From: a virus
Reading direction: 5' to 3' (one strand)
IMG/VR virus record: IMGVR_UViG_3300030099_006531
Coordinates: 1 to 21,766 of that record
Length of the DNA: 21,766 bases
In this document: positions 8,532 through 20,899 of the stretch, one piece after another
How positions within the stretch are numbered: position 1 is the first letter of the stretch
How the letters are laid out: each line of letters starts with the position of its first letter
The notes under the pieces: generated by a model
Seen by the model: only the letters and a program-made list of their open reading frames with translations
Database searches by the model: none
What the model was told of the DNA's origin: nothing
Position numbers and translations under genes: made by a program

Positions 8532-9119
8532 ATGTCTAAGTTTTGGAACAACAGTGGCCTAGAGCCAAAAAGAGGATATAAATTTCAAATGAGTATTTCT
8601 GGTGTAGATGGACAGTCGAATATACCAGCATACATTGTTAAAACTGCAAAAAAGCCAACTTTTACTATGAGTGGCCCTGCAGAGGTCAAGTATATACAGC
8701 ACACATTTAAATACCCCGGTAGGGTTACCTGGGATCCTGTTGATGTTACTATTCTAGATCCAATGACTCCTGACTCGGCGCGCATATTAATGAACATGTT
8801 AGCCATTTCTGGCTACGCACAACCAGCAGATCCACAAGCTGCGTTAACATCAATTTCCAAGGCAAAGGCAGGATTAGCAGTTGGCGGTGTTAAATTAGCT
8901 GAGATTAACTCAGATGGAGCGCAAGTTTCAGAGTGGATGCTTTGGAACCCATATTTCTCTGGTGTGGATTTTGGCTCACTTGGATATGATAGCGATGACT
9001 TGATTGAGTATACTCTGACAATTCAATATGATTATGCAACTTACAGAGTTAGCAATCCAGAACAAGCTGGCGGCCAAGTACTACCAGCGGTGAGACACTC
9101 ATCACAAGGTCGTGGCTAA
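8532..9119 (+). CDS. gp19: Tail tube protein, gp19-like
   Basis: The major subunit of the inner tail tube, stacking as hexameric rings inside the sheath. It opens MSKFWNNSGLEPKRGYKFQM, with the beta strands that start gp19-type proteins, followed by the family's insertion loop (AYIVKTAKKPTFTM) and a C-terminal half with WMLWNPYFSGVDFGSLGYDS and the strand EYTLTIQYDYATY. At 195 aa it is slightly longer than T4 gp19 (163 aa), with an added loop near residues 95-120. It sits directly behind the sheath, as 18-19 do in T4. The start has AAGGAGA with a suitable spacer. A second, diverged copy of this fold follows 21 bases later. Confidence 0.9.
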   Translation: MSKFWNNSGLEPKRGYKFQMSISGVDGQSNIPAYIVKTAKKPTFTMSGPAEVKYIQHTFKYPGRVTWDPVDVTILDPMTPDSARILMNMLAISGYAQPADPQAALTSISKAKAGLAVGGVKLAEINSDGAQVSEWMLWNPYFSGVDFGSLGYDSDDLIEYTLTIQYDYATYRVSNPEQAGGQVLPAVRHSSQGRG

Positions 9120-9128
9120 TTAGCTTAT

Positions 9129-9132
9129 AAGG
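9129..9132 (+). promoter_or_regulatory. Ribosome binding site deciding a TTG start
   Basis: AAGG lies 8 bases before TTG at 9141. No ATG or GTG occurs in frame near it (the next methionine is residue 22). The product from TTG begins MSNFWNQS, aligning exactly with MSKFWNNS of the tail tube, so TTG is the start. Confidence 0.65.
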
Positions 9133-9140
9133 TTTAAATC

Positions 9141-9788
9141 TTGTCTAACTTTTGGAATCAATCTACAATAAAACCTAAAAGATCATTTCAATGGGTAGGC
9201 TATATGAATTTATTTAGTGGAGACGAAAGTGCTATCACTGATCTCGGACCAGCACCGTTTTTAGTATCAACTTTTACAAAACCAAAGTTTACTTTTGATA
9301 ATGAAACATTAATCAATAATTTTACTTCACAGACCGAAATCATAACAAAAAATTATGTGTGGGAAGACATTGCGCTAACAATAATAGATATTCAAAATAG
9401 AAAACAAAATGCTTCAAACGCAGTTTATTCGTGGCTAACCAGTATAGGATATGAGCCGGAACAAACTTTAACTCAATTAAGTACTCTGTTTGGAAATCTA
9501 GATAATAAAAAACTTAGTTTACGTTTACAACATATAGACTCTGAGGGTAAACCTTTCGAAGAGTGGAGTTTTACAAAACCACAAATAACTTCCATTGATT
9601 TCGGTGGTGAATTAAGCTATGATTCAGAAGAAGTGTTAAGAATTAATATTGGCATTACTTATGTAGCGGCCACATATAATTTAATTGGCGCCGCGCCTTC
9701 TGAAACACCAGGTGAACTTAACTTTACACCGGGACCAGTTGGTCAATCTCTAGTACCAGGAGAGTTTTCCCCGGGCGGTATAATTTAG
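9141..9788 (+). CDS. Second tail tube-fold protein (gp19 paralog)
   Basis: A 215-aa paralog of the preceding tube protein. Both start MS-FWN-S--PKR, both have a F/T-KPxFTF/M turn after the first strands (STFTKPKFTFDN here), and both end with a strand pair around SIDFGGELSYDSEEVL and ITYVAATYN (VDFGSLGYDSDDLIE and YDYATY in gp19). Sequence identity outside these points is low. T4-like phages use gp19-fold proteins as tube initiators in the baseplate (gp48 and gp54), so this may be a specialised ring at one end of the tube or a minor tube subunit. Its place directly behind gp19 favours a tube function. The TTG start would lower its yield relative to gp19, consistent with a minor component (inference). 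The C-terminal 30 residues are Pro/Gly-rich and likely flexible. Confidence 0.8.
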   Translation: MSNFWNQSTIKPKRSFQWVGYMNLFSGDESAITDLGPAPFLVSTFTKPKFTFDNETLINNFTSQTEIITKNYVWEDIALTIIDIQNRKQNASNAVYSWLTSIGYEPEQTLTQLSTLFGNLDNKKLSLRLQHIDSEGKPFEEWSFTKPQITSIDFGGELSYDSEEVLRINIGITYVAATYNLIGAAPSETPGELNFTPGPVGQSLVPGEFSPGGII

Positions 9789-15256: not shown

Positions 15257-18200
15257 ATGTCAGACGAAACAAAAAAACAAGATAGTGCTATTCAACAGAA
15301 AAGCTTAAACGCAAATAATCAAAAGAATGAAGAGGTGAAACTAGACCCATTGGCCTTTGCACCTCAGATTTTTTTATTAGATTTGTTTTCAGAGGACTCT
15401 GGGATATCTGGATTAAAACTACAAAAAACACCAAATAGCGCTAATAAATTTTCTCCAAATGTTCCCAAATTACAAGAAGGCCAGCTAGACAGAGTTAATT
15501 CAATTTTAGATCTTAATTTTAAAAAGATTGCAGATTTTATTAATACAATTCCTACAAATGAGATAGCACAGTTAGTGCCTGAAATTAATATGTTTATAAT
15601 AGATAGTCTGGAACCATCGAGGCAACTTCAAATTCCACTATCAGACCCTGCAACTTTAAACAAATCACAAATGGGTTCTTTAGGATATTATTCAGGCAAT
15701 ACAATTGGGCTATCCAGTATGGAAATGACTCTGGATGGCAATAGAAATCCTGCTTTTAATAAAGCATATCTAGTCAAGATGAATTTTGTTCTAGATTCTA
15801 TAAATACATTTACAGATCCTATACCGGGTGGTAATGAATTTGGTGGTTTAACATATGCTGATATTTTTAGGTCTGGAGGTAGCCCGGGATCATTAAATGA
15901 TAGATTCTTCATCAAGCTTGCGATATCACATGCCGCATCACCGAACAATAATATATTAGAAAAATATGGCTTACACTCAGATGACATGACTTTTTCACTT
16001 TCTTTAACCTTAAGAGAAAGTACTTTTGGAGTTGGAGAGAATTTAAAAACAACAGTTGATGTCACGTTTACTGGATATGAAGAAAATCTTTATGAAAGAA
16101 AAGATTTATTTGATTTTCTCTCTTTGGATCTTAGATCAGCAAAAGTTGAGTTAAAAAACAAAATTAACAAAGCTAAAAATACATTTTCACTAGCTAAAGC
16201 AACCGCAGAGGAAAGAGCAAAAAAATTCACAGAAATTGCAAAAGAAAACTATGATCAAGAGTTCAAAGATGCAAATAATAAATTTGCTAGCAAATATTTT
16301 GGAGGAGATGCGGCAGCTGCCAAGAATTATTTAAAATACTACAAAAACCCAAGAGACGCACAGCGCCGCAGCGGAGTCGCTGAGAATAGTGAAAAAAGCA
16401 AGTTGGCTCAGACCATATATAAAGATGTCCTCAGTTATAAGAAACGAAGTGATATCCGGCAATCAGGTAAAGGAGGTTACTTTTCCTTTATTCAGCTTGC
16501 GGCCGCAGCCGATGATTTAACTTATGATATTCCAGAAAGATTTAAGACCTTTAATAACGGCATTGAAATTGAAAAAAATAACGCTATAGGTAAAGCAAAA
16601 GCTGATTTTGATAGAATTAATAATGTAGAGAAAGCCAAGTTAGACAATATTAGAATGAATGAGATATCTAGAGTGCTAGAAACAGCTTTTTTTGGAAAAG
16701 AATACTATGATGCTGGTATTATAAAAACAATACAAGTTACTTCTGAGCAATTACAAAACTACTTTCGAAAACAAAAGGATGGTGGTTTTTCGCCTGAAAA
16801 CAGTATAAAAACTTTAGAAGGAACAGACAGCAAAGATGCTGCAAACGTTAAAGAGAGTACGCCCAATCCCACACAGAACACTATAACTCCAAACGAACCA
16901 GATCACAAAAAAATAGAAGAGGTAAAAGAAAATTTAAAAAAGAAAGACGCAGAGATTGCTAGAAAAGAAACAATTTTTAATGTTCAAAATATAAAACAAG
17001 AAGATTATGAGAAAGACGATTCGTATAAAAAATTAATAGAGGAAAAGAACAACCTTCAACAACAATTAAAGGACATAACACAATTTTCTCAGACACTCGG
17101 TGGCTCAGTTCAAGATATTTTAGATAAATTAAATAATTACAAACAGTTTGATTATATTCTTTTAGGTGATTTACTGAGGTTGACTTTTAATAAACTTTTT
17201 GATAATATTTTAATGGATCAAACAAAAGACACTGGCACCGGTGGCTTTGAAGTGGCGTTCAACGCTCTAAATGTCGCCAATAAATTTGCTGGCAATGTTC
17301 AAACAAAAATACTAAGTAGAACAAGATTACTATTAACTGATATAGTCATCCCAAAAGCTGGTCAGACCAATATAAATATTACTAGAAATTTGTTTGATAT
17401 GCCAATATCAGTTAAAAATTTAAAATTTTTATTCGCTGATAAAATATTTGGAAAATCTAAAAACAATTATACTCTTTTTGAACTTATCGGTGATATCGCA
17501 AACTTAATTTCTGTTTCTTTTCAAAATAAAGCAATATTATTAAACGATACAAGTCCGAAAAGAAAATATTCAATACACAAAGCATCATATAGTTTAAAAG
17601 GAGAAAATCCCAATTTTACAATTATATCAAGTAAATATAAAACACCAGATCTAAAGCACGGAGTTGTTATTTATTTTAGATCAACTGAAGAAAACTTTAA
17701 AAGAGACACAAGTTATTCATCAAATGTTGACAATAAAATTCCTCATCTTTATTTTGGAGGATATGATCGCGGCGCCGTAAAAAAAGTAGAATTAACATTG
17801 CATCAAAAAGACAATATGCAATTAGCTGTGATGGAGAGTTTGGGAGGGACTGCAGGAAAAATAATACCAGCTTTTTTTAAAAGCAGGGCTACTCTTATAG
17901 CATGTCCGATATTTCATTTAGGAATGGAATATTATGTTGCAACACCAACAATTAATTCTCAAGGAGAGAACCCTTGGTTGTATTCTGAAGGTTATTATGG
18001 TGTGAATAGTGTTACGCATAGCTATAGGGCCGGCGGCCCGTTTGAAACTGTAGTTGAGGGTATGCGATTAAATTCAAAACAAGATACAAAAGACAAGACA
18101 GCGCCCATTAAAGTTTTAACTGCTGATGAAGCAAAAAAACTAGCCTTGCAAAATATTGAAGATGGTGGCGTGCTTGATGAATATGAAATGCTTAGACAAC

Positions 18201-18398: not shown

Positions 18399-19688
18399 AT
18401 GCCTAGAGATATTCTTATAGTACCACACGCCAGAAATAAATTACCAGCAGATTCCCTTTTCACTCAAAGACGCTATTATGCTCTGGACCCAAAAGTATAT
18501 CCAACAGAAGGTATTCCAAAGCCTGTTGACACTTGGATAGAAAAACCAATGTGGGGAAAAGTAGATATTAAAAATAGATTTGTTTATGCCGATGTTGATT
18601 CTTTGCTGCCTATAGGCAATAATATTTCAGTTATAAATTTTGTGGCTGATGCCTATAGGGATATGGTTAGTTTCGTTTTAAACGCCAGCTTATCATTAAG
18701 GACTTGTATGACTTCTATTGTAGATGTTACAAGTCCAGTTAAAGGTTATGAAGATCTTGTCTCAAACTACCATGGCTACTTTAATGAGAAATTAGAGATA
18801 GCGTTTGTTGATAATTATCTTTCTCAACAAAGTAAAAATGAAATAAAATCATTTAAAGATTATATGAAGTTATACTTAGAATTTGCAAAAAAAAACAACA
18901 CTTATCCTCATACGATGACTGGGCTTTTATCTTCTGCAAATTCTAGCAATAGAACAAGTGGTTTGATTATTGAATTCGAATCACAATATAGATATGATGA
19001 TGACTCACAAAAATGGTATCATTTTTTATCTAGTGATTTTTTTAAAGACTACGTTCGTATTGCAGGGCTTAATGGTTTTTATGTAAATAAGAATATTCCA
19101 TGGTCAATAGCTGCAAACTTAAATTCAATTTATATGAAAGCTAAAATGAAAAAATATGGAATAGAATCAGCCGAAGAAAATTTTAATGTTAATTGTATAC
19201 AGTCAGAATATATTTCTTATGAATCTTTTAAAAAATATATGTTCTATGCATATTATTCTTTAATAACTTTTCAACCAAAAATAGAAAAATTGAGTGTCCA
19301 AAATTGTATTGCTAGTAAAATATTTGATTCCAAATTTAAAACAAAAAGACAAGTTATAACAAGACCAACTGAGTTTGAAAATGTATCGACTGCCACTTTT
19401 GATGAATTTGTTTCTATATATCCAGAAAGTTATTTTATAGAAAATTATATAAACTTAAGATTAATAGAATCAAAAATAAATTTAAGCTCAAAAGAAAAAA
19501 TGAGTTTAATGCGCCAAGTCGTAAGTGAAATTAAAAAAGGCGATACTTTTGATGCAATGCTGGTTTTTTCTGATTATATCGCCAAAAAGTTTACATCGCC
19601 GGGATTGTCTCGCCGCGACAGAGCCTCACAAGATAAAGTCAATGAAACGCAGCCAACACCCTCTCAAAATAATACCTTGACTTATTAA
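18399..19688 (+). CDS. Probable virion structural protein of unknown role
   Basis: A 429-aa protein not assigned to a known function. A 97-base gap with no clear terminator separates it from the hub-like gene. Visible features are MPRDILIVPHARNKLP at the start, HTMTGLLSSANSSNRTSGL near 170-188 leading to IIEFESQYRYDD, FFKDYVRIAGLNGFYVNKNI around 214-233 followed by PWSIAANLNS, and a helical C-terminal third. The combination of a SGL-I-E strand and a G-F-V-(D/N)KN-PW motif recurs, as I recall, in large uncharacterised proteins of T4-like marine phages, but I cannot verify this. The last 30 residues are polar and disordered. GGAGA lies 12 bases before the ATG, rather far. Position between baseplate and polymerase genes suggests a tail or baseplate accessory part. 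Confidence 0.6.
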   Translation: MPRDILIVPHARNKLPADSLFTQRRYYALDPKVYPTEGIPKPVDTWIEKPMWGKVDIKNRFVYADVDSLLPIGNNISVINFVADAYRDMVSFVLNASLSLRTCMTSIVDVTSPVKGYEDLVSNYHGYFNEKLEIAFVDNYLSQQSKNEIKSFKDYMKLYLEFAKKNNTYPHTMTGLLSSANSSNRTSGLIIEFESQYRYDDDSQKWYHFLSSDFFKDYVRIAGLNGFYVNKNIPWSIAANLNSIYMKAKMKKYGIESAEENFNVNCIQSEYISYESFKKYMFYAYYSLITFQPKIEKLSVQNCIASKIFDSKFKTKRQVITRPTEFENVSTATFDEFVSIYPESYFIENYINLRLIESKINLSSKEKMSLMRQVVSEIKKGDTFDAMLVFSDYIAKKFTSPGLSRRDRASQDKVNETQPTPSQNNTLTY

Positions 19689-19711: not shown

Positions 19712-20899
19712 ATGCTTTTTCAAACGTTCGACGAAAAAAATAAATGTTCCTTGATTTACAGAAAGGGAACATTTAGTGAACAAATTACAAACAATTGTAC
19801 AAAAACGTGGTCTTATGCTACTTACCTAGAAGACAAGGAGGTCGAGTATGCTAATCTTTACGCTATGGGCAAATCACTGGAGCAGCTTTGCCCAGAAAGT
19901 ATTAGAGGGGAGTGGTCCTCCGTCCAAGCAAGAATTAAAGCGGCTATCAAAGCAGCGAAAGAAGTAGGCTTAGATTTAAATGACTATTGTGTTTATGAAC
20001 TTATTCCAAGCCATTACTTGCAAAACTTTGCAGAAATTAAGAATATAATTTGCGAAGATGTGTTTCAAAAATACACAAAACCTACAAACTATGATCAATT
20101 ATTAAAAATAAATAAAATAATTGCAGACATTAAAACAAGAAAAGTAAATATTGATCCTACAAAAATAGAAAGACTAACAGTTCAAGATCGTAATATGTTT
20201 AAGACCGTGAGCAATTGCAATCCATACATTGACTATGATATGTTTAAAACTGTCACCGGTCGATTGGCAACAAAACCTAATTCTTTCCCAGTTATGACAC
20301 TTCCAAAGAAGTATCGCCAAATCCTTACCCCCACTAACGATTGGCTATTTGAATTAGATTTTAACGCTTGTGAGTTACGTGTCGCTCTTGCTCTTCTTGG
20401 TTATGATCAACCAGAGGAAGACTTACACGATTGGAATCTTAAGAATGTTTTTACAAGAACTAAAAGTAGAGAAAATGCAAAGAAAAGAATCTTTTCTTGG
20501 CTTTATAATCCAAAGAGCACTGATGCCAAGGTAGATAAGATTTATGACCGTAAAATACTAAAAGATATGTATTTTGATAAAGTTTTAGGTAAAGTTTACA
20601 CACAGTTTGGGCGCGAGATTGATGCAGATGAAGATCATGCGATTAGTTACATTATTCAATCTACGGCAGCAGATTTAGTGTTTGAACAAATGTATAAGGT
20701 TTGGGAATATTTAAAAGGTAAAAAATCTTTTGTTAAATTTTGTAATCACGATAGTTTGGTTATAGATCTTTCAGAAGATGATCAATACGAAATAAATGAA
20801 ATTTCTAAACTATTTAGTAATACAAGGTTTGGCAAGTTTAAAATAAACCACGAAGGTGGAAAAAACTGGTCAGATATGAAACCACTACATATTAAATGA
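19712..20899 (+). CDS. polA: Minimal family A DNA polymerase (palm and fingers only)
   Basis: Template-directed DNA synthesis. All three Pol I motifs are present: motif A with FELDFNACELRVALA (D216, E221, R223), motif B with R253, K257, F261 and Y265 (RENAKKRIFSWLYNP), and motif C NHDSLVIDL (H346, D347). TVTGRLATKP (181-189) and QSTAADL (316-322) match other Pol I blocks. Differences: motif C has HDS where Pol I has HDE, and the residue after Y265 is Asn where Pol I has Gly. Position F261 corresponds to E. coli F762. At 395 aa the protein is far shorter than phage Pol I proteins (about 600-900 aa). The first 150 residues show no exonuclease acidic motifs, so proofreading must come from elsewhere or be absent. 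The ATG at 19712 lacks a ribosome binding site, but the frame is closed by a stop 12 bases upstream. The next gene begins 7 bases after the stop. T4 itself uses a family B enzyme. Confidence 0.88.
   Translation: MLFQTFDEKNKCSLIYRKGTFSEQITNNCTKTWSYATYLEDKEVEYANLYAMGKSLEQLCPESIRGEWSSVQARIKAAIKAAKEVGLDLNDYCVYELIPSHYLQNFAEIKNIICEDVFQKYTKPTNYDQLLKINKIIADIKTRKVNIDPTKIERLTVQDRNMFKTVSNCNPYIDYDMFKTVTGRLATKPNSFPVMTLPKKYRQILTPTNDWLFELDFNACELRVALALLGYDQPEEDLHDWNLKNVFTRTKSRENAKKRIFSWLYNPKSTDAKVDKIYDRKILKDMYFDKVLGKVYTQFGREIDADEDHAISYIIQSTAADLVFEQMYKVWEYLKGKKSFVKFCNHDSLVIDLSEDDQYEINEISKLFSNTRFGKFKINHEGGKNWSDMKPLHIK

Follow-up and report, generated by a model that had tools for sequence, protein, structure and literature searches.

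The 395-aa protein encoded at 19712-20899 of the window is, by its sequence, a divPolA1, a kind of reduced family A DNA polymerase already published in 2024, and it probably acts as an accessory gap-filling or primer-replacement polymerase beside a bacterial-type DnaE replicase, forming a "split Pol I" with a separately encoded 5' nuclease. The window is the whole stretch of DNA that was analyzed, 21,766 nt, and comprises an entire 21.8-kb IMG/VR entry with T4-like head and tail genes. The divPolA1 proteins were named by Yutin et al. 2024 as PolA enzymes additional to a regular polymerase of family A, B or C, with gp001 of Flavobacterium phage immuto as a named example (PMC11348598). Fourteen divPolA1 phage genomes of 155-190 kb were published, among them LR796625 and GOV_bin_630 (MK892584), the source of the marine divPolA1 QDP51333; polymerase activity was predicted for these proteins, and divPolA1, rather than the regular polymerase, was described as occupying the conserved replication cluster (PMC11348598). 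The literature searched yielded no later study of divPolA1.

The polymerase gene is an intact open reading frame with an ATG start and a TGA stop (Table 1). Its product matches the Pfam DNA_pol_A family at 45.1 bits against a cut-off of 34.3, with the match confined to the profile's palm and fingers region (111-220 and 291-379), and the best PDB matches of its AlphaFold2 model have a TM score of 0.61 by query length. An initial search recovered 43 distinct related loci and a profile search 408 confirmed stretches among IMG/VR relatives, so the observation is not due to chance. In an alignment of 42 family members, the equivalents of E. coli R668, D705, E710, R754, K758, Y766, Q849 (here Q316), H881 and D882 are invariant, while the equivalent of F762 is present in 41. 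An earlier note on this DNA had reported complete motifs A, B and C in a protein of this length, with HDS in motif C and Y-N after motif B as oddities; the motifs hold up across the family, and the oddities proved to be family traits, Y-N being fixed and HDS nearly so. Comparison with six close relatives gave the dN/dS values listed in Table 1, and the gene is under strong purifying selection. Active-site conservation and low dN/dS favor an active polymerase, with catalysis predicted on these grounds.

Table 1. Features of the polymerase gene and of the gene that follows it in the window.
Feature	Position	Strand	Evidence
divPolA1-type family A DNA polymerase, 395 aa	19712..20899	+	PF00476 E 9e-12; AlphaFold2 mean pLDDT 89.4; Foldseek to Pol I/Klenow enzymes E 4e-12, prob 1.00; dN/dS 0.035-0.077
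Residues 1-143, helical domain where the Pol I exonuclease domain sits, without exonuclease motif	19712..20140	+	No Pfam exonuclease match; model helices 62-84, 100-120, 127-141
Residues 144-181, thumb remnant, 38 aa against 122 in E. coli Pol I	20141..20254	+	Distance from KVNID helix to TGRL
TGRL motif (R184 = E. coli R668)	20255..20266	+	R184 invariant in 42 sequences
Motif A ELDFNACELR (D216 catalytic, E221 steric gate)	20351..20380	+	Both residues invariant in 42
Motif B RENAKKRIFSWLYN (R253, K257, F261, Y265, N266)	20468..20509	+	R/K/Y/N invariant, F in 41/42
Motif C NHDS (H346, D347 catalytic, S348 replacing E883)	20744..20755	+	H346 and D347 invariant, S348 in 40/42
FtsZ/tubulin-fold protein, 282 aa	20907..21755	+	AlphaFold2 pLDDT 93.4; Foldseek to FtsZ E 4e-13, TM 0.70

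No profile of an exonuclease family in Pfam matched any part of the 395-aa protein, and no exonuclease motif was found in its N-terminal part, in agreement with the earlier note, which had described a palm-and-fingers-only enzyme and had named a frameshift or a missed upstream reading frame as what would overturn that description. Neither is present. The 429-aa open reading frame just upstream (18399-19688) is a separate gene and the polymerase frame is intact, so no exonuclease part is missing upstream; a frameshift was also rejected because dozens of loci share the frame at a constant length. The state of the thumb likewise makes "palm and fingers only" a fair description. Between the pre-thumb helix, which ends in KVNID, and TGRL lie ~38 residues, with 34 in the LR756508 protein and 36 in immuto gp001, whereas E. 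coli Pol I has 122 there, which leaves the protein without most of a thumb. As profile-profile alignment to full Pol I is unreliable in the N-terminal region, this argument rests on the spacing and on the intermediate sequences, and in the thumb region the profile alignment is in register with LR756508 and immuto gp001. Residues 1-143 align with the degenerate exonuclease-like N-termini of LR756508, immuto gp001 and the Microcystis phage Mel-JY01 protein, which suggests that this segment may be a further reduced remnant of a decayed exonuclease domain.

Assignment to divPolA1 draws on several lines of evidence. A profile of the small PolA proteins matched immuto gp001 (E 1e-11 among 1090 proteins) and the LR756508 protein (E 4e-23), and in the family A tree that the earlier note had called for, the window clade groups with these two apart from the regular PolAs with support of 100/99, a grouping that long branches could affect and that was set against a sample of only five regular PolAs. 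The protein combines a palm whose main catalytic residues (D216, D347, K257, R253 and Y265) are invariant in the 42 members with a truncated thumb and loss of the 3'-5' exonuclease, and so has neither the exonuclease domain nor the full thumb of a regular replicative PolA. Replication genes lie downstream in related records G001, G003, G019 and G020 and in immuto, the window itself stopping after the first downstream gene, and relatives carry a coexisting regular polymerase and reach genome sizes close to those published. Two sequence types can be distinguished within divPolA1: the window clade keeps the equivalents of E710, R754 and H881, whereas immuto, LR756508 and Mel-JY01 have lost all three. 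The Mel-JY01 copy (PP395634.1, 50397-51623; L140:397-1623), annotated as hypothetical protein WWT39333.1, was missed by the first profile and found by an extended one (E 9e-27); it lies upstream of SSB, RecA, 5' exonuclease and helicase genes in a genome with a family B polymerase. The 452-aa homologue in LR756508.1 (L148) is likewise followed by SSB, RecA and 5' exonuclease genes, and at 484,177 bp this genome is far above the published 155-190 kb range. Judged by sequence, these previously unannotated copies widen the divPolA1 group.

Two related records, G019 (190.6 kb) and G020 (186.4 kb), have direct terminal repeats of 98 and 51 bp and were taken as complete genomes. Following the earlier note, we searched for a gp43-type family B polymerase (PF00136), and none was found in 26 related records including these two, so a hidden family B polymerase was rejected for these records. 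Instead, a family C polymerase, DnaE, is present: in G001 it matches DNA_pol3_alpha at E 2e-51 with finger, PHP and HHH domains, and both complete relatives encode it in full. DnaE was found in 19 of 31 records, these being all 19 that are long enough to reach its position; the other 12 extend for 0.5 to 15.4 kb past the polymerase gene and stop short of the DnaE domain position. These observations come from relatives whose polymerase is up to 90% identical, the source record covering 21.8 kb and ending 11 bp past the FtsZ-like gene. DnaE is likely the main replicase in the related genomes, and phage DnaE is common among isolates (1359 records). The DnaE frame of G001 has a break near 16436 (L054:16430-16610), with the N-terminal piece in a separate reading frame, due either to an assembly error or to a real frameshift; the gene is intact in G019 and G020. 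The earlier note had started from the premise that T4-like phages replicate with a family B enzyme, which is too narrow, as the nearest isolates use family A (immuto) or family B (Mel-JY01) and the window's own clade family C. Its suggestion of a replaced or supplementary replication system held up, but it had not foreseen a complete DnaE, and overall its interpretation is supported in part.

That note had also raised a separately encoded exonuclease, for which no candidate emerged: stand-alone RNase_T/DnaQ exonucleases were not found in the 19 records tested nor DNA_pol_A_exo1 in the 13 tested, and a separate DEDD exonuclease was dismissed as searches with PF01612 and PF00929 gave no match in them. 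G019 DnaE has all nine PHP metal ligands (H14, H16, D24, H49, E79, H134, C185, D259 and H261), matching the set of five His, three Asp/Glu and one Cys behind the intrinsic proofreading of M. tuberculosis DnaE1 (PMC5636811); phage DnaE genes with all nine are found at L125:1885-5319 (-) and L137:1112-4540 (-). With the nine ligands kept and DnaQ-type exonucleases not found in the records tested, DnaE may do its own proofreading. This phage DnaE is a plausible candidate for built-in PHP proofreading, and its PHP domain appears a better candidate than a separate exonuclease. The bacterial sliding clamp (PF02768) gave no match in the records tested, and genes of the Mel-JY01 clamp-loader region, sought in the DnaE genomes, gave no match except one small protein.

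In relatives, the genes downstream of the polymerase gene are, in order, an FtsZ/tubulin-fold gene, a gp32-like SSB, RecA, a separate 5'-3' exonuclease and DnaB, with a B12-dependent type ribonucleotide reductase next after DnaB in G001, G003 and G019. The matches in G001 are E 2e-13 for gp32, E 2e-32 for RecA, E 2e-29 for 5_3_exonuc_N and E 1e-25 for DnaB_C. This order is repeated in G019, G020 and immuto, in the last case without the FtsZ-like gene, and the 5' nuclease is part of the cluster in all four large relatives and immuto. The regular polymerase lies ~15 kb from divPolA1, in a more variable neighborhood near GroEL. G001 also encodes SbcCD-like and RuvC-like proteins and a weak but recognizable DnaG-type primase. 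The 282-aa FtsZ-fold protein has no Pfam match, and where a G-rich GTP loop is expected it reads SCGAVSGAS, which differs from the FtsZ signature. Its gene follows the polymerase gene throughout the window clade and in many related loci (e.g., L055:9779-10627 (-), L097:11182-12045 (+) and L137:19122-19976 (-)); the immuto pieces and Mel-JY01 showed no homologue. Elsewhere, at L060:14501-15511 (-) and L054:10850-11869 (-), G001 encodes a protein resembling adenylosuccinate synthetase (E 1e-81) and an IMP dehydrogenase (E 9e-106), a purine-pathway pair that could bear on modified purines. Within the window, 8532-9788 holds two adjacent tail-tube-like reading frames of 195 and 215 aa, and the G001 counterparts of both match one and the same tube gene of G019 and G020, which points to a duplication of the tail tube gene.

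Since relatives carry a DnaE that probably copies the genome, divPolA1 is probably a helper. The family A enzyme has kept the palm and fingers with their catalytic residues while losing the 3'-5' exonuclease function and most of the thumb. DnaE would copy the genome and proofread through its PHP domain, and divPolA1 would make short patches of low processivity in the gaps left once the nearby 5' nuclease has removed RNA primers, the two proteins dividing the work of a Pol I over two genes. The gap-filling step is proposed from gene neighborhood and domain loss. The main alternative, which we consider unlikely, is that divPolA1 extends invading 3' ends in recombination-dependent replication, by D-loop or break-induced synthesis with RecA, before handing over to DnaE. 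RecA and the gp32-like SSB are encoded nearer to divPolA1 than the 5' nuclease is, and the SbcCD-like and RuvC-like genes are in the same genome, but the 5' nuclease also belongs to the cluster in all four large relatives and in immuto. It is distinctly unlikely, although conceivable, that divPolA1 is the fixed core of a replication cluster with an exchangeable main replicase (family A in immuto, B in Mel-JY01, C here), performing a step that each replicase needs, perhaps with the FtsZ/tubulin-fold protein in the family C clade.

The location of divPolA1 in the conserved replication cluster, with the regular polymerase outside it (PMC11348598), counts against an accessory role and could mark divPolA1 as the more central enzyme. 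It also stays in place while the family of the regular polymerase changes between relatives. Nevertheless, a divPolA1 main replicase with DnaE as the accessory enzyme is improbable: without an exonuclease and most of a thumb, divPolA1 should be less processive and less accurate, DnaE is a complete enzyme whose PHP site is full, and immuto-type members have lost the E710, R754 and H881 equivalents. HDS is also the form of motif C in T7 RNA polymerase, which would fit a family A derivative acting as an RNA polymerase or in the manner of a primase. We regard this as highly improbable, as the steric-gate glutamate typical of DNA polymerases is invariant, the best structure matches are Pol I enzymes and G001 has its own DnaG-type primase; an RNA polymerase role was raised in the published work for divPolA2, not divPolA1 (PMC11348598). 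Replacement of E883 by serine and the near loss of the thumb might instead point to a catalytically dead DNA-binding or regulatory subunit, yet in members down to 39% identity neither catalytic aspartate varies, nor do R253, K257, Y265 and Q316, and we give this reading very little credence.

The data correct the view of T4-like phages as dependent on a family B polymerase: a marine branch probably has a bacterial-type DnaE as its main polymerase, alongside a reduced family A enzyme. While divPolA1 is a known kind, its pairing with DnaE and the large marine sample are of moderate interest. The 408 related stretches, against 14 published genomes, are material on which the role of divPolA1 can be tested, and the same sample allows PHP proofreading by phage DnaE to be tested.

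The protein shares with E. coli PolA and its Klenow fragment the palm and fingers fold and motifs A, B and C, but has no 5' nuclease or 3'-5' exonuclease in its chain, only a thumb remnant, shorter fingers and serine in place of E883. Rhodothermus phage RM378, a Far-T4 phage in which the polymerase genes, as annotated, are divided between separate loci, was expected to be a family A precedent and was rejected; its p092 reads FDLDFTSLYPS, a family B motif, and did not match the small-PolA profile. The divPolA2 of barbaviruses is also an accessory PolA without an exonuclease or a homologous thumb, but is set apart, by its published description, by a variable gene neighborhood and another N-terminal domain (PMC11348598). 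The closest likeness is to the immuto-type divPolA1, which is likewise an extra family A enzyme beside a regular one with the exonuclease inactive or missing, the thumb truncated and the palm kept (PMC11348598), and whose gene precedes SSB, RecA, 5' exonuclease and DnaB in T4-like genomes of similar size. Proteins of the window clade differ from it in being shorter (395 aa against 441 in immuto), with a more reduced N-terminal part, and in having Y-N and HDS, the corresponding residues being Y-G and YDA in immuto, LR756508 and Mel-JY01.
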